Source: Gammaproteobacteria bacterium
Lineage (GTDB): Bacteria > Pseudomonadota > Gammaproteobacteria > Steroidobacterales > Steroidobacteraceae
DNA length: 36,492 nucleotides
Assembly: GCA_020029545.1 (NCBI GenBank)
Contig: JAIBJL010000001.1
Coordinates: 1 to 36,492, forward strand
Reading direction: 5' to 3'
The number at the start of each line of letters is the position of its first letter. The stretch's first letter is position 1. The position numbers and the translations under genes were made by a program. The notes beneath the pieces are model-generated. The model did not search any database, was not told the DNA's origin, and saw only the letters and a program-made list of their open reading frames with translations. Positions 3,456 through 36,442 of this stretch are shown here, in pieces.

Positions 3456-4859
3456 TCAGAGAATCGACTGTCCCCGTGATGCCAGCCAGTCGAGGGCACC
3501 TCCCACCGTCAGAAACGAGCCGAATACAACGACTCGATCACCAGGACCCGCAAGGGCGCACGCCCGATCGCAAGCCGCCGCAACTGACTCATCACTTGCG
3601 ACCTCCTGCGCTCCCCCGCGCTGCAGACGGTCTGCCAATGCCTCGGCAGGCACGGCTCGCGCACCCGGCAATCCAGCCACGAGCCATTGATCGACGCTGC
3701 GCAGCAATTCGTTCAACACCCCTTCGATGTCCTTGTCGCCGAGAATGCCGCATACCGCAATCGTACGACCGCCATGCGCGCCTCTGGTGGCCGCTAGTTG
3801 CGTGGCGAGTGTGTGTGCTGCCGCCGGATTGTGCGCGACATCGAGTATCCATGGCACGCCCGACACCATCAGTTGTTGAAAACGTCCCGGCAGACTGACT
3901 GTCGACAAGCCCTGGCGGATAGCCGCCTCGCTCACCGGCAGCCGCGAGTGCAGCGTGGTCAGCACCGCGAGCACCGCAGCCGCGTTGTCGAATTGGATGT
4001 CGCCGATGAGCGCCGGCCATGGCAGGTCCTCGATGTGACGCTTGCCGAGACTGTCGCCCGCACGCCATGACCAGCGCCGGTCACCGCGTTCATAGTCGCC
4101 CCGTTCGTAGTCGCCCTGTTCGTAGTCGCCCTGTTCGTAGTCGCCCTGTTCGTAGTCGCCCTGTTCATAGTCGAAATCCACGCCCAATCGCAGCAGCCCG
4201 GCACCGGTCTCGCTCGCCACCGTCGCAATCGAGTTCGGCATGTCGCGCGAACCGAACACCGCGGGTCGGGCATTGCGGAAAATACCGGCTTTCTCGCGAC
4301 CGATCGTATCGAGGTCGTTACCAAGCCAGGCGCAATGATCGAGCGCTATCGAGGTGACGAGCGCCACGTCGCAATCCACCGCATTCACTGCGTCGAGCCG
4401 GCCGCCCAGTCCGACTTCCAGCACGATGACATCCAGGCAGGCGGTTTCGAACACCAGCAGCGCAGCCAGCGCATTGAATTCGAAGAACGTCAGCGTATCG
4501 GCGCCGCGAGCGCGATCGATGCGTTCAAACGCAGCGACCAGCGAGGCATCCGACACTGCTTCGTCGGCGACGGTAATGCGCTCGTTGTAACGCAGCAGAT
4601 GTGGCGAAGTGAACGTGCCGACACGATAACTGGCGCAGGTCAGCATCCGGTTCAGCAGTGCGACGCTCGATCCCTTGCCATTGGTGCCCGCGACAGTGAT
4701 CACAGGGCACGCGGGACGACGCCATTTGAGCGCGTGCAAGGTGCGATTGAATCGCGTCAACCCGAGGTCGATCGGATTCGGATGCAGCGACTCCTGCCAG
4801 GACAGCCAGTCTGCGAGGGAGGAAATAGTGAGTGGTGAGTGGTGAGTGGTGAGTGGCAA
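3456..4859 (-). CDS. folC: Bifunctional folylpolyglutamate synthase/dihydrofolate synthase with an internal pentapeptide repeat
   Basis: LADWLSWQESLHPNPIDLGLTRF, VAGTNGKGSSVALL, HLLRYNERI, ILDVAHNPAAAHTLA. Start uncertain: the only conventional in-frame start is a TTG at the edge of a heptamer array. Confidence 0.95.
   Translation of the reverse strand: MPLTTHHSPLTISSLADWLSWQESLHPNPIDLGLTRFNRTLHALKWRRPACPVITVAGTNGKGSSVALLNRMLTCASYRVGTFTSPHLLRYNERITVADEAVSDASLVAAFERIDRARGADTLTFFEFNALAALLVFETACLDVIVLEVGLGGRLDAVNAVDCDVALVTSIALDHCAWLGNDLDTIGREKAGIFRNARPAVFGSRDMPNSIATVASETGAGLLRLGVDFDYEQGDYEQGDYEQGDYEQGDYERGDYERGDRRWSWRAGDSLGKRHIEDLPWPALIGDIQFDNAAAVLAVLTTLHSRLPVSEAAIRQGLSTVSLPGRFQQLMVSGVPWILDVAHNPAAAHTLATQLAATRGAHGGRTIAVCGILGDKDIEGVLNELLRSVDQWLVAGLPGARAVPAEALADRLQRGGAQEVASDESVAAACDRACALAGPGDRVVVFGSFLTVGGALDWLASRGQSIL
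4081..4170 (-). repeat. In-frame 15-bp tandem repeat x6 inside folC (DYEQG x4, DYERG x2)
   Basis: Six contiguous 15-mers of type tcgccctgttcgtag on the + strand, with few substitutions. Confidence 0.97.
4828..4855. repeat. Tandem heptamer array GTGAGTG x4
   Basis: gtgagtggtgagtggtgagtggtgagtg, perfect 7-bp periodicity. Confidence 0.97.
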
Positions 4860-4897
4860 GAATCGTCAGCCTTTCGACAGCTATCGGTGCGGGCAAA

Positions 4898-5066
4898 GGG
4901 TAAGAACCGCGCGGACGCGGCTGGTCAGCTGGTAAGAACCGCTGTACGGCTGGTCAGAACGAACTGCCGGATATTGATCTGTTCCGGATCTTTTATCTGG
5001 CCAGCTTACCCGCCGCATCCGCGGTTCTTACCCGCTTGCCAGCTTACCCGCCGCGTTCGTGGTTCC
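4898..5066 (-). repeat. Palindromic dispersed element, copy 1 (GGTAAGAACCGC / GCGGTTCTTACC), between accD and folC
   Basis: Its reverse complement aligns along most of its length to 17252-17370; each copy is itself an imperfect inverted repeat. Confidence 0.9.
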
Positions 5067-6816: not shown

Positions 6817-6833
6817 GGATAGAAAAGTGACTT

Positions 6834-6910
6834 GTGAGTGGTGAGTGGTGAACGCAAAGGCAAGGAAGATGCCTCCTCCTACCAATCACGATTCACTACT
6901 CACGACTCAC
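6834..6910. repeat. Inverted heptamer arrays between truA and fimV
   Basis: Left arm GTGAGTG-GTGAGTG-GTGAACG (6834-6854); right arm CAATCAC-GATTCAC-TACTCAC-GACTCAC (6883-6910). Confidence 0.9.
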
Positions 6911-17215: not shown

Positions 17216-17251
17216 GTCTCTCGCCATGGCGAGCCAGGTCAGACACACGGT

Positions 17252-17370
17252 GGGTAAGAACCGCGGACGCGGCTGGTAAGCTGGCCAGATAAAGATCCGG
17301 AAGGTCGTTCTGACCAGCCGCGACAGCGGTTCTTACCCGCTTACCAGCCGCGTCCGCGCGGTTCTTACCC
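17252..17370 (+). repeat. Palindromic dispersed element, copy 2, between convergent epmA and efp
   Basis: gggtaagaaccgcggacgcggctggtaagctggccagataaagatccgg...ttctgaccagccgcgacagcggttcttaccc; near-identical blocks to the reverse complement of 4898-5066. Confidence 0.9.
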
Positions 17371-19206: not shown

Positions 19207-21258
19207 TTGGCTGAGCAAGGCGCCGTGCCGATGATTGTCCTGACCCGCCATCAGGACAACGTGGAGGCCATCAACAGTACGCTGCGCAATGCCGGTCACG
19301 CGGTGCGTTGTACCTGGATTCGCGACCTCAACGAACTGGGCGATGCGCTGGGCCATGTCACTGCCCACATGCTGATCGCGTTCGTCGGGCCGGACGCTGC
19401 CGACACGGCCAAGGTGATGGCGGTCCGCAAGCAGTTCGATGCCACCATCCCGGTATTGATGGCGCGCGAACAGGTGGATGAGGACATCATCGCTGCCGCG
19501 ATGGCCCAGGGGGCTCGCGATGTCGTCACGCTCAAGAACACTGCGCGCCTGCAGGCCGTGGTCACCCGCGAACTCGAAGCCCACCGCCAGGCACGCACGC
19601 TCAACAGCACCTTGAGTTCGGCGCGCGAATACCGCGATCAGCTCAAGTCGTTCATGGCCGGTTCGGCGGATGCCATCGCCCATGTGCAGGAAGGCATCGT
19701 CGTCGACGTGAATCCGGCCTGGCTGGAACTGTACGGCTTTCCGGATGCCGACTCGATCGTCGGTACGCCATTGATGGATGCCTTCGACAGCGAGGCGCAT
19801 GCAGCGATCAAAGGAGCGCTGGTCGCGTGCCTGCAGGGCAAGTGGCAGGACCACTCGCTGCGTGCCGGCGCCTTGCTCAGCGATGGCTCCACTGTGCAAC
19901 TCGAACTCGAACTCTCACCTGCCGAATTTGACGGTGACCCGGCGGTGCGCCTGTGTGTGCCCGCCAAGAAACGCGACAGCGGCACGTTGAATGAGCAACT
20001 GAACGATGCCCTCGAGCACGACGCCGCGACCGGTACGCTGCAGCGGCGCTTTTTTACCGAGCGCGTCCTGCAGGCGCTGACCCAACCGATCAAGGCGGGT
20101 GTGCGACAACTGGTGTCCGTCGAGCCGGACAAGCTTGGCGCGATCTGCGACGACATCGGGCCCTTGCACACGGAAGAATTCGCCGGCCAGTTCGCCGGCA
20201 TCGTGAGCGAGACCCGACAGACGAACGATCTCATCGGCCGCTTCGGGGACGGCGCCTTCATGATTCTCATGGAACGCGGCACCGCGCGCGACATCGAGAT
20301 CTGGGCTACCAACCTGATGCGCAAAGTCGCCCTGACGGTATTTCGCGTGGGTGACAAGCAGATTTCATGCACGTGCAGTGTCGGTATGGGCAGCATCGAT
20401 CCGCGCAACCCGGACCCGGCGGTCTCGCTGACCGACGCGATCGCCGCACGCCGCGGTGCGCAACAGGCCGGTGGCAACCGCTTCCAGCTGATCGATCACC
20501 AGGACGAAGACACCAAGCAGCAGGCGGCCGATGAAATCTGGATGAAACGCATCAAAGCGGCACTCATGGAGAATCGTTTCCGCCTGATGCAGCAACCGAT
20601 CGCGAGCCTGCTGGGCGAAGACCACGGCATGTTCGACGTCCTGGTGCGCATGGTCGATGAGCAGGGCGACGAGCTGCTGCCCGCCGAATTCATGGCAGCG
20701 GCCGAACGCAACGACCTGATGAAGAATATCGATCGCTGGATTCTCGCCTCCGCCATGACCGTCTGCGCCAACCGCCCTGTCAAGGAATTGTTCGTGCGCC
20801 TGTCGCGCGATTCGGTCCGCGACAAATCCCTGGTGCAATGGCTTTCCAACCAGCTCAAGGCCACGCGCATCGAGCCCTCGCGCATCGTGTTCCAGGTGAG
20901 CGAACAGGTCGCCACGGAATATCTTGCCGATACCAATGAGCTGGCGAGTGCGCTGCGCAAGGCAGGCTTTCAGTTTGCCTTGGAGCATTTCGGCGCCGGG
21001 CGCGACCCCTCGCGATTGCTCGCCCAGCTCCCGGCCAACTACATCAAGATCGACGGCACGCTGATGCAGGGACTCGCCGTCGATCCGGCGATTCAGCAGA
21101 AAGTTCGTGAACTTGTCGATCAGGCTCGTGGGCAGAGCGTAAGAACGATTGCCGAACGCGTCGAAGACGCCAACACCATGGCCGTGCTGTGGCAACTCGG
21201 CATCGAGTTCATCCAGGGCTACTTCGTGAATGAACCCGAACAGGTGGTGATGGGGTGA
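19207..21258 (+). CDS. FimX-like protein: receiver-like, PAS, degenerate GGDEF and degenerate EAL domains
   Basis: TTG start; PAS-like ADAIAHVQEGIVVDVNPAWLELYGFPD; GGDEF site replaced by FGDGAFMIL; EAL replaced by DVL (MFDVLVRM); DDFG replaced by EHFG; KIDG and QGYF kept. Length 683 aa. Confidence 0.85.
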   Translation: MAEQGAVPMIVLTRHQDNVEAINSTLRNAGHAVRCTWIRDLNELGDALGHVTAHMLIAFVGPDAADTAKVMAVRKQFDATIPVLMAREQVDEDIIAAAMAQGARDVVTLKNTARLQAVVTRELEAHRQARTLNSTLSSAREYRDQLKSFMAGSADAIAHVQEGIVVDVNPAWLELYGFPDADSIVGTPLMDAFDSEAHAAIKGALVACLQGKWQDHSLRAGALLSDGSTVQLELELSPAEFDGDPAVRLCVPAKKRDSGTLNEQLNDALEHDAATGTLQRRFFTERVLQALTQPIKAGVRQLVSVEPDKLGAICDDIGPLHTEEFAGQFAGIVSETRQTNDLIGRFGDGAFMILMERGTARDIEIWATNLMRKVALTVFRVGDKQISCTCSVGMGSIDPRNPDPAVSLTDAIAARRGAQQAGGNRFQLIDHQDEDTKQQAADEIWMKRIKAALMENRFRLMQQPIASLLGEDHGMFDVLVRMVDEQGDELLPAEFMAAAERNDLMKNIDRWILASAMTVCANRPVKELFVRLSRDSVRDKSLVQWLSNQLKATRIEPSRIVFQVSEQVATEYLADTNELASALRKAGFQFALEHFGAGRDPSRLLAQLPANYIKIDGTLMQGLAVDPAIQQKVRELVDQARGQSVRTIAERVEDANTMAVLWQLGIEFIQGYFVNEPEQVVMG

Positions 21259-21309
21259 GAGCGCCTGTCGGCGCTGGTGACGGGCGACGGGCTACAGGCG
21301 ACGGCCAGA
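21255..21309 (+). repeat. 55-bp direct repeat, copy 1 (GCGCC/GGCGC hairpin plus GACGGGC heptad array), starting on the stop of the fimX-like gene
   Basis: gtgagagcgcctgtcggcgctggtgacgggcgacgggctacaggcgacggccaga. Confidence 0.95.
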
Positions 21310-21426
21310 TCTTTACCTCTCCTTGGGGAGAGGTCGTGCGTAGCGCGGGCGAGGGGTTGCGCACAGCGCTCTTTCGCAGCAACTTGCTGCGGTCTCGCCT
21401 CACCCCAACTGCTTTGATGCGTACGT

Positions 21427-21480
21427 GTGAGAGCGCCTGCGGCGCTGGTGACGGGCGACGGGCTACAGGCGACGGCCAGA
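21427..21480 (+). repeat. 55-bp direct repeat, copy 2 (one 1-nt deletion relative to copy 1)
   Basis: gtgagagcgcctgcggcgctggtgacgggcgacgggctacaggcgacggccaga. Confidence 0.95.
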
Positions 21481-21541
21481 AGAACGAGATCACTCCTCGC
21501 GCTGTGTAATACCGGGTGCTTCGACCGTCAGAGAAAATTCT

Positions 21542-21583
21542 GGCCGTAGCCCGTAGCCCGTTACCCGTAGCCTATTCCCCGTC
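21542..21583 (-). repeat. Inverted partner heptad array GCCCGTN x6
   Basis: GGCCGTA-GCCCGTA-GCCCGTT-ACCCGTA-GCCTATT-CCCCGTC, opposite orientation to 21279-21306 and 21450-21477. Confidence 0.9.
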
Positions 21584-21602
21584 GCCGGGCTTGCGCGATG
21601 CG

Positions 21603-23852
21603 CTAGCCCTCCGTCTCCAGTCCTTCCACCTTGCGCCAGCCTCTAGGCAGCACCGCGCCGCGCTGCGCGCGTTCGCCCTGGTAATCCTTCAGCTCGCTGA
21701 ACTTGAGCGTCATCTTGCGTTCGCCCGAGCGCACGATGAGATTCTGTGTCGGCGCGACGACGGCAATCGCGGCAAGGAATTCCTCGCGCGTTGCCACTTT
21801 CTTTGCCGACAAACCAAAGATCTTGTTGCCCTTGCCGCGCGGCAGCTCGGGCAGATCCGTCACTTTGAAGGCCAGCAGCTTGCCATCGTTGCTGACGGCG
21901 CAGAGCAGCGCGTCATCGGTAGTCACCGGGGCGGGCGCGAGGACGCCGGACTGTTCCGGCACTTTCAGCACCAGCTTGCCGGCGCGATTGCGCGAGTGCA
22001 GTTCTTCGAGCTTCACGACGAAGCCATAACCGGCATCGGAAGCGATCACGTAGCGATCCTGCGGTTCGCCGATCATGACGCCCGCAAACGTCGCGCCGTC
22101 CGGCGGATCCAACCGACCCGACAGCGGTTCGCCCTGTCCGCGTGCCGATGGCAACGAATGCGCAATCAGGCTGTAGGCGCGGCCGGTACTGTCGAGAAAT
22201 ACGGCGAGCTGGGTACTGCGGCCACGCGCGGCCGACTGAAATGCATCGCCGGTCTTGTACGACAGCGAACGCGGATCGAGGTCGTGTCCTTTCGCGGCAC
22301 GCACCCAGCCGCGCTCCGACAAGACCACCGTCATCGGTTCGCTGACGACCAGGTCGGCTTCGCTGATCGCCTGTGCCGCGGCGCGCTCGACGATCTTGCT
22401 GCGGCGGGCATCGCCGTACGTCGCGGCGTCGCTGGTCAGTTCCTCGCGTACCAGCTTCTTCAAGCGCGCCTTGCTCTGGAGAATCTTGTGAATCTCATCG
22501 CGTTCGTCCGACAGCTGCTTCTGCTCGCCGCGAATCTTCATTTCCTCGAGCCTGGCGAGATGACGCAACTTGGTCTCGAGAATGGCTTCCGCCTGGATCT
22601 CCGAGAGTTCGAAGCGCTGCATCAACACCGGCTTCGGCTCTTCCTCATGACGAATGATGCGGATCACCTCATCCAGATTCAGATAGGCGATCAGCAAGCC
22701 ATCCAGGACGTGCAGGCGGGCATCGAGCTTCTGCAGGCGCCAGGTCAGTCGGCGGGTGACCGTATCGACGCGAAACTTCAGCCACTCCTCCAGCAACTCC
22801 TTCAGACCCATGACGCGCGGACGCCCGTCGAGACCGATGATGTTCAGATTGACGCGATGCGTGCGTTCGAGATCCGTGGTCGCGAACAAATGCGCCATCA
22901 GCTGCTCGACATCGACGCGATTGGAGCGAGGCACGATCACCAGGCGCGTCGGATGCTCGTGGTCGGACTCGTCGCGAATGTCCTCGACCATCGGCAGCTT
23001 CTTGGCGTTCATCTGCGCCGCGATCTGCTCCTGAATGCGCGCTCCCGACACCTGGTATGGCAGCTGCGTGATGATGATGTCGCCGTCTTCCACTTCGTAG
23101 ACGGCACGGGCGCGGATCGAACCGCCGCCGGATTCGTACAGCTGCTTGATCTCGGCACGCGATGAAATGATCTCCGCGCCGGTGGGGAAGTCCGGACCTT
23201 TCACAATCCGGCACAGCTCGCTCAACGTCGACTCCGGCTCATCGAGCAACAGGATCGCCGCGTTCACGACTTCGCGCAGATTGTGCGGCGGAATGTCCGT
23301 GGCCATGCCGACGGCAATACCCGATGCGCCGTTGAGCAGCACGTTGGGCACGCGTGCCGGCAGCAAGAGAGGCTCTTCGAGCGTGCCATCGAAATTGGGC
23401 GCCCAGTCGACCGTCCCCTGTCCGAGTTCCGAGAGCAGCAGCGCTGCATACTTCGTGAGTCGCGATTCGGTGTAACGCATCGCGGCGAACGACTTCGGGT
23501 CGTCCGGCGAACCGAAATTCCCCTGTCCGTCCACGAGCGGATAGCGGTAGGAGAACGCCTGTGCCATCAACACCATCGCCTCGTAACACGCCGAGTCGCC
23601 ATGCGGGTGAAACTTACCGATGACTTCGCCGATCGTACGCACCGACTTCTTGGGCTTGGCGCCCGCCGCCAGTCCCAACTCGCTCATCGCGTAGACGATG
23701 CGACGCTGCACCGGTTTCAGCCCATCGCCGACATGCGGCAGCGCGCGATCGAGAATCACGTACATCGAGTAGTCGAGGTACGCCTTCTCGGTAAATGCCT
23801 TAAGTGGCTGGCGCTCGATGCCTTCGAAATTCAATGGCGGTTGACTGGGCAT
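21603..23852 (-). CDS. parC: DNA topoisomerase IV subunit A
   Basis: [79 protein letters not shown]. Confidence 0.98.
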
Positions 23853-23880: not shown

Positions 23881-23964
23881 GTGAAAAGTGAATCGTGAGT
23901 GGTGTGTGGCGGAGTCGGAAGAGATGGGCCGCTGCCCATTCACGACTCACCACTCACGACTCAC
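23881..23964. repeat. Inverted heptamer arrays between parE and parC
   Basis: Left GTGAAAA-GTGAATC-GTGAGTG-GTGTGTG (23881-23908); right CATTCAC-GACTCAC-CACTCAC-GACTCAC (23937-23964). Confidence 0.9.
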
Positions 23965-23971
23965 CTTCTGC

Positions 23972-28114: not shown

Positions 28115-28135
28115 TTTGTTCGGGCGATTTAGGCG

Positions 28136-28206
28136 GTGGGCTGTGGGCTGTGGGTCGAACGAAGATGGGGACTGAGGTAAATCCGCCTCTACCTACAGCC
28201 CACAGC
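28136..28206. repeat. Inverted heptamer arrays GTGGGCT / AGCCCAC
   Basis: Left GTGGGCT-GTGGGCT-GTGGGTC (28136-28156); right CTACAGC-CCACAGC (28193-28206). Confidence 0.88.
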
Positions 28207-28243
28207 CTTTCCAGCGTCGCAAGCGGGTCATCACCGACGCGCT

Positions 28244-28347
28244 CCGACCTACATGGATGTAGGAAGTGCCGAACTGTGTCAGGAACACACGTCGGCCGAC
28301 CTACACGGATGTAGGAAGTGCCGAGCTGTGTCTGGAACACAGATCGG
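28244..28347. repeat. 52-bp tandem repeat x2; each unit encodes two adjacent hairpins
   Basis: 28244-28295 and 28296-28347 differ at 5 of 52 positions by hand alignment; unit = CCTACAnGGATGTAGG + AAGTG + CCGAnCTGTGTCnGGAACACAnnTCGG. Confidence 0.95.
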
Positions 28348-28377
28348 CGGACGCTGAGGACTGCGGTAACTTCCTAC

Positions 28378-28405
28378 CTACAGCCCACAGCCTCCAGCCC
28401 ACAGC
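28378..28405 (-). repeat. Heptamer array (AGCCCAC family) x4 downstream of rubrerythrin
   Basis: CTACAGC-CCACAGC-CTCCAGC-CCACAGC. Confidence 0.88.
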
Positions 28406-28416
28406 CCTTTTTTCAG

Positions 28417-30390: not shown

Positions 30391-30404
30391 TTTAGGAAAT
30401 AGGC

Positions 30405-30490
30405 CACGGGCGACGGGATTACGGGCGACGGCCGGAATGATCGGTGCGCCTTTTCGGCTGTTGCCTGTCGCCCGTTGTCCGTTGCCCGTT
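30405..30490. repeat. Inverted heptamer arrays between ispA and dxs
   Basis: Left CACGGGC-GACGGGA-(T)-TACGGGC-GACGGCC (30405-30433); right GCCTGTC-GCCCGTT-GTCCGTT-GCCCGTT (30463-30490). Confidence 0.9.
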
Positions 30491-30515
30491 TGAGATTGCG
30501 GTACACTTGCGCGGC

Positions 30516-36258: not shown

Positions 36259-36414
36259 GCGAATGGTCAGAAGGCTACTTTCATCGCTCTAGCTGATGAG
36301 CCAGAGATGATTTAAGGGTCAGCAGTATAACGGGTCCGCCAGCTCGATCGGTGACACCAGTCATGCCGTGACCTAGCACGGCCACGCACCCGGGTCGTTT
36401 ACGCCCTCTACTCT

Positions 36415-36442
36415 GGCCGTAGCCCGTCGCCCGTGGCCCGTC
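36415..36442 (-). repeat. Heptamer array GCCCGTN x4 overlapping the stop of the upstream (ribBA-like) gene
   Basis: GGCCGTA-GCCCGTC-GCCCGTG-GCCCGTC. Confidence 0.88.

Follow-up and report, generated by a model that had tools for sequence, protein, structure and literature searches.

We tentatively interpret the repeat island situated between a fimX-like gene and parC as one copy of a dispersed intergenic bracket that occurs in some Steroidobacter-clade genomes and that putatively serves as a REP/BIME-like stem at gene 3' ends, a reading to which we assign a probability of roughly 0.45. The term bracket is used here for a G-rich short-period array that reads inward, followed by a loop and then by the inverse, C-rich array; the period is 7 nt, or less often 8 or 9, and the loop measures approximately 20–300 nt. 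As relatives carry a different short word at the same gene boundary, the data suggest that the paired arrangement is more important than the sequence of the word. The window (the whole stretch of DNA analysed, 36,492 nt) corresponds to a single contig of a draft genome that totals 5.1 Mb in 619 contigs, and the closest named relatives of its FimX-like protein belong to Steroidobacter metagenome genomes, Povalibacter and Peristeroidobacter. The island and its neighbours are arranged as follows:

19207–21258, + strand: FimX-like gene (PAS, GGDEF and EAL domains), upstream neighbour of the island, TGA stop codon at 21256–21258
21255–21309 (55 nt), + strand: copy 1 of the left (G-rich) arm, overlapping the fimX-like stop codon
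21310–21426, + strand: stretch separating copies 1 and 2, with hairpins at 21316–21333 and 21376–21392
21427–21480 (54 nt), + strand: copy 2 of the left (G-rich) arm, with one T fewer than copy 1
21481–21537, no strand given: loop from copy 2 to the right arm
21538–21586, + strand: right (C-rich) arm, inner end TTCTGGCC, six heptads outward
21603–23852, − strand: parC (topoisomerase IV subunit A), convergent neighbour of the island, stop codon at 21603–21605

The two left-arm copies have two identical blocks in common, of 13 and 41 nt, offset by one base, and each is composed of an AGCGCC/GGCGCT hairpin, four heptads (GGTGACG, GGCGACG, GGCTACA and GGCGACG, at 21276–21303 in copy 1) and a GCCAGA end. 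Copy 1 starts one base 5' of the fimX-like stop codon, and the right arm, which corresponds to the opposing array TTCTGGCCGTAGCCCGTAGCCCGTTACCCGTAGCCTATTCCCCGTCGCC with six heptads (the fifth being degenerate), ends 16 nt from the parC stop codon. The hairpins at 21316–21333 and 21376–21392 read CCTCTCC-TTGG-GGAGAGG and CGCAGCAACTTGCTGCG, respectively. The first-pass annotation had described two 55-bp direct repeats differing by a 1-nt indel, a hairpin plus four-heptad array within each, the CCTCTCC hairpin between them, an opposing six-heptad array downstream and a first repeat that begins on the stop codon of the gene, all of which were located as described. Its treatment of the island as a single locus was not upheld, as the heptad half recurs genome-wide in head-to-head arrays and proximity to a stop codon is a rule of the class. 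With regard to further copies of the 55-bp unit in the genome, the heptad part does have other copies while the whole unit is local, its nearest relative elsewhere being one place that matches at 89% over 47 bp. A second match to the loop (21481–21537) was not found in the sequence searched.

Over 31–35 nt, the right arm shows 83–87% complementarity to each of the left-arm copies, and the island folds far better than dinucleotide shuffles of it (z = −4.96 for the + strand and −5.84 for the − strand). The lowest-energy fold accommodates both copies simultaneously: copy 2 is paired over 22 bp to the near half of the opposing array and copy 1 over 18 bp to its far half, and the two copies are thus not forced to compete. 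The earlier suggestion that the opposing array could pair with either repeat was consequently sustained with respect to complementarity, but not with respect to mutually exclusive structures. A local switch, in which the array would pair with one or other direct repeat, is hardly credible in spite of this complementarity, since the best fold employs both copies and since a single left arm is present in the fimX-parC brackets of relatives and at most other sites.

The middle stretch is a degenerate fragment of a MITE-like repeat that resembles the whalefall-1 RNA. Positions 21310–21369 are 82–87% identical to a half-element of this repeat (L002–L011), which is recurrent in the window's genome, measures approximately 190 bp and possesses GAATGGCACTAAGTTAAG ends and inner CCTCTCCC hairpins; the copy in the window is without the GAATGGCACTAAGTTAAG ends. 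Two other copies (L080 16131–16276 and L095 5975–6174) lie inside the loops of heptad brackets. The CCTCTCC hairpin and the ensuing GGGCGAGGGG (21313–21356) fit the full-length Rfam whalefall-1 model (RF01762) with 28.5 bits, below the cut-off of 37, and this was the only match to a known RNA family in the island. Apart from being sub-threshold, the match differs from whalefall-1 in that it constitutes, in the window's genome, half of a repeated MITE-like element, and both halves of one intact copy (L002 1459–1502 and 1535–1578) likewise resemble whalefall-1 below the cut-off. The whalefall-1 family, which was reported from environmental sequence only (PMC2864571) and which both halves of a repeat resemble below its cut-off, may thus partly consist of dispersed-repeat fragments. 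A plant miRNA-family match on one MITE-like copy was considered a fortuitous hit on a long hairpin. In the draft assembly, duplication of the left arm appears to have taken place around the degenerate MITE-like fragment.

The genome of the window contains 151 occurrences of the heptad triplet ACGGGNNACGGGNNACGG, well beyond chance as judged from a reversed control pattern, which occurs twice. When 60 genomes were searched, 334 matches were obtained in one same-genus genome (among the matches listed, all ACGGGTG) and 44 in another, and the triplet was absent from 55 of the 60. When tandem repeats were sought irrespective of their sequence, period 7 stood far above other periods, with 10.8 arrays per 100 kb in the window's genome and 13.9 in genome G060, densities that rest on samples and need caution because many of the sampled contigs were chosen for holding matches; a small random sample of the window's genome held three period-7 arrays in 156 kb. 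Period 7 was the commonest in every genome sample with more than a stray array, and samples of three other relatives contained no period-7 arrays. Near-perfect (GGGTGAC)n arrays of approximately ten or more units were observed in G060 and Povalibacter (L122 17645–17773, L129 17222–17318, L134 152–235 and L171 8820–9117), some of them at contig ends, and these arrays probably break assemblies.

Polarity of the arrays is pronounced. Among 70 pairs of neighbouring arrays within 250 bp, detected by periodicity only, 58 run G-rich then C-rich and three C-rich then G-rich, the remainder having the same direction (seven) or no assigned polarity (two). Several units coexist in each genome, yet both arms of one site share their unit: the arm match within a site was 0.905 in G060 versus 0.64 (sd 0.025) when arms were re-paired, and 0.88 versus 0.76 (sd 0.025) in the window's genome. 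The latter genome employs GGGCNAC, GGTGAGT, GGGATTC and GTGGGCT, and G060 employs the period-7 units GGGTGAC, GGTTGAC, GGGGATA, GCGGATA, GCGGTTA and AGTCCGC in addition to the longer GTGACGG (period 8) and GTGATGNAR (period 9). Independent of the unit, the inner ends of brackets tend to read GGCCAGAA, GGCAAGAA or GGTCAGAA. No second match was found for 47 of 51 G060 loops in 390 kb of sequence. One intergenic region (L203 9260–9548) holds three nested or chained GGGC-unit arrays, including one pair of opposite polarity. A GGGGCCT/GGGGCGT-armed dispersed element of the window's genome (L076 7558, L080 10584, L081 121, L088 6605, L103 3260, L105 4749 and L205 5608) was left out of the bracket class as an ordinary small dispersed element on account of its conserved loop (ACACGCTGGCACATTCGAGTCTC).

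In 24 GGGCNAC pairs anchored at the inner end, the variable base of the unit showed no covariation between arms (P 0.1–0.66); the arms of one such site agree in unit and not in detail. Precise pairing is thus not under visible selection, and the idea that it is selected was rejected. Alternatively, the arrays could consist of sites for a DNA- or RNA-binding protein to which both opposed arrays are necessary. This would be in keeping with the lack of covariation, with a unit that combines a fixed ACGGG core and a free position, and with the fixed opposed orientation; the explanation is nevertheless unlikely, as the many units per genome would call for many specificities. Four or more GGG tracts in one arm are present in 20 of the 44 brackets of the window's genome, and the G-rich arms of brackets resemble in layout the Xanthomonas and Nostoc GGGAATC repeats (PMC4692102), for which G-quadruplex elements were proposed. 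In G060, however, four GGG tracts in either arm are seen in just 11 of 52 brackets (29 of the 52 have none or one), although neither layout nor position differs, and the quadruplex reading, already weakened, appears quite improbable here.

With respect to genes, 59 of 69 inverted pairs are intergenic, and brackets fill most of the space between two genes. The median distance from the outer edge of a bracket to the stop codon is 22 nt in the window's genome and 4.5 nt in G060, based on gene models from a simple coding-potential script in which starts are approximate and stop codons are fixed by the reading frame. Brackets were found in 89 of 341 spacers touching a gene 3' end versus 13 of 106 divergent spacers (P = 0.003 pooled; P = 0.13 for the window's genome and 0.005 for G060). 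No T-tract follows the C-rich arm on its 3' side (T content of 0.22–0.25 versus a background of 0.20–0.22), and for this reason an intrinsic terminator was ruled out. Together with the lack of covariation in GGGCNAC pairs, this makes a loose REP/BIME-like stem more plausible than a finely tuned structure or an intrinsic terminator.

Such a stem could arise as follows. The whole arm-loop-arm block would be gained as one unit, and upon transcription from either side its arms would pair into a long stem at the mRNA 3' end, which may act in a REP/BIME-like manner as an exonuclease barrier and as a transcript boundary for both convergent genes. By virtue of the repeated short unit, arms could gain or lose copies through slippage and would still pair. 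At the fimX-parC site, the left arm would later have been duplicated around the degenerate MITE-like fragment. This reading draws support from the polarity and within-site match of the arms, the proximity to stop codons, the junctions compared below, the strong folding on both strands and the transcript ends reported for similar Xanthomonas repeats (PMC4692102). The lack of covariation, the length of the loops and the 13 bracketed divergent junctions argue against it.

Further arrays were identified in the window:

23884–23968: second bracket, unit GTGAGTC, at the parC-parE junction
28132–28406: third bracket, unit GTGGGCT, with a loop of 229 nt
30402–30491: fourth bracket, ACGGG unit
36414–36442, + strand: C-rich arm, ACGGG unit, near the contig end

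The loop of the third bracket contains another dispersed repeat, approximately 90% identical to L105 9809–9913. GTGAGTG arrays were seen in two further junctions of the window (4820–4861 and 6827–6854), one of which ends in GGCAAGA. In addition, an inverted repeat family with no clear periodicity (GCGGCTGGTAAG) is present twice (4912–5059 and 17250–17340), the two loci having a 45-nt match at 93% in common.

Comparison of junctions between relatives indicated how brackets are distributed. In 19 relatives without a bracket the fimX-parC gap measures 1–74 nt (median 25), while bracketed gaps measure 344 nt (GGGCNAC, window), 134 nt (GTGTAGA, L031), 126 nt (GGTTGAC, L032) and 117 nt (GTGGCTA, L064), a count that omits a few relatives with a different repeat or a rearranged junction. 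Since the unbracketed gaps are so short, the arm-loop-arm block is extra DNA, apparently gained separately. At the parC-parE junction three genomes carry three units (GTGAGTC, GGGGATA and a GCGGATA type), and most others have a gap of near 30 nt. The window's genome and G060 have 31 junctions in common, of which three are bracketed in both, five and eight in a single genome and 15 in neither; bracket presence is accordingly uncorrelated between the two (Fisher P = 1, in a small sample), and the units differ at each of the three doubly bracketed junctions. The cleanest example is a junction with a 0-nt gap in the window's genome and a 92-nt bracket in G060. An ancestral bracket with turnover of its unit was rejected on the basis of this uncorrelated presence, the 31 junctions being a small sample.

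The same distribution brings forward a close rival to the REP/BIME-like role, namely a neutral or selfish origin, which is a real possibility: units of 7–9 nt grown by slippage would be template-switched across, or inserted as a non-autonomous mobile unit, and arrays would persist by stop codons only since insertions are harmless there. Lineage-specific presence at common junctions, the lack of covariation inside a unit family, the nesting of MITE-like repeats in bracket loops, and the long near-perfect arrays of G060 and Povalibacter, which look freshly expanded, are all consistent with such an origin. Less easily accommodated are the nearly universal inward-G polarity, the loop, which slippage alone does not yield and which the short gaps of relatives cannot supply, and the fact that most G060 loops (47 of 51) are without family likeness, unlike ordinary mobile elements. 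At long odds, brackets may represent a new insertion class, in which both cut ends would receive inward 5'–3' G-rich repeats by telomere-like templated synthesis with unrelated filler between them. If this were true, the template word would differ by family or lineage, and gene boundaries would be marked by interchangeable words of 7–9 nt.

Bacterial heptameric repeats have so far been interpreted as quadruplex sequences or as simple repeats. In brackets, the unit varies by family and genome, while the opposed arms, the inward G-rich strand and the contact with a stop codon are constant, so that the question becomes what maintains the layout, instead of what the sequence binds. The fimX-parC boundary, being one natural junction that occurs with four different units and with none, makes this question testable.

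The nearest known system is that of the GGGNATC heptads in two Xanthomonas species, for which Rehm et al. (2015; PMC4692102) reported convergent pairs and a preference for stop codons and proposed quadruplexes. Convergent inverted pairs number 70 in Xcc and 75 in Xac, transcripts start or stop in the heptad repeats more often than in controls, and 83% of sites kept a G-rich repeat at the same position between the two species (PMC4692102). Brackets share with these repeats the heptad period, the intergenic location, the convergent inverted pairs with inward G-rich strands and the depletion between divergent genes, as well as the placement of the G-rich strand directly after a stop codon and of the C-rich strand just before the next gene. 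They differ in that they employ GGGCNAC and many other units, with periods 8 and 9 too, in that four-GGG quadruplexes are not possible for most G060 units, and in that, in contrast to the positional retention in Xanthomonas, the unit changes between relatives at the same junction. The GGGNATC unit itself was detected in one of 143 Gammaproteobacteria searched, the window's own genome, where three such units in succession occur once, the unit of the window being GGGCNAC.

Similar to REP/BIME elements, brackets are dispersed intergenic stem-loops near gene 3' ends that are usable by both strands; REP, however, is a short palindrome of conserved sequence, whereas a single bracket arm is a non-palindromic tandem array that pairs with the opposite arm, its unit varies and the loop is long. 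Cyanobacterial STRR heptanucleotide repeats are likewise tandem 7-bp units in intergenic DNA but form few inverted pairs in Nostoc (PMC4692102). MITEs also have inverted arms around a short interior and vary in presence or absence at a given junction, but the bracket interior is not conserved between copies, as is evident from the G060 loops (47 of 51 without a second match in 390 kb). The literature searched yielded no report of the bracket class in Steroidobacter. Relative to Rehm et al. (2015), the many interchangeable units, the lineage-specific gain at shared junctions and the apparent lack of a general need for G-quadruplex tracts are new; brackets have the layout of the Xanthomonas repeats but occur in the Steroidobacter clade and with free choice of unit.
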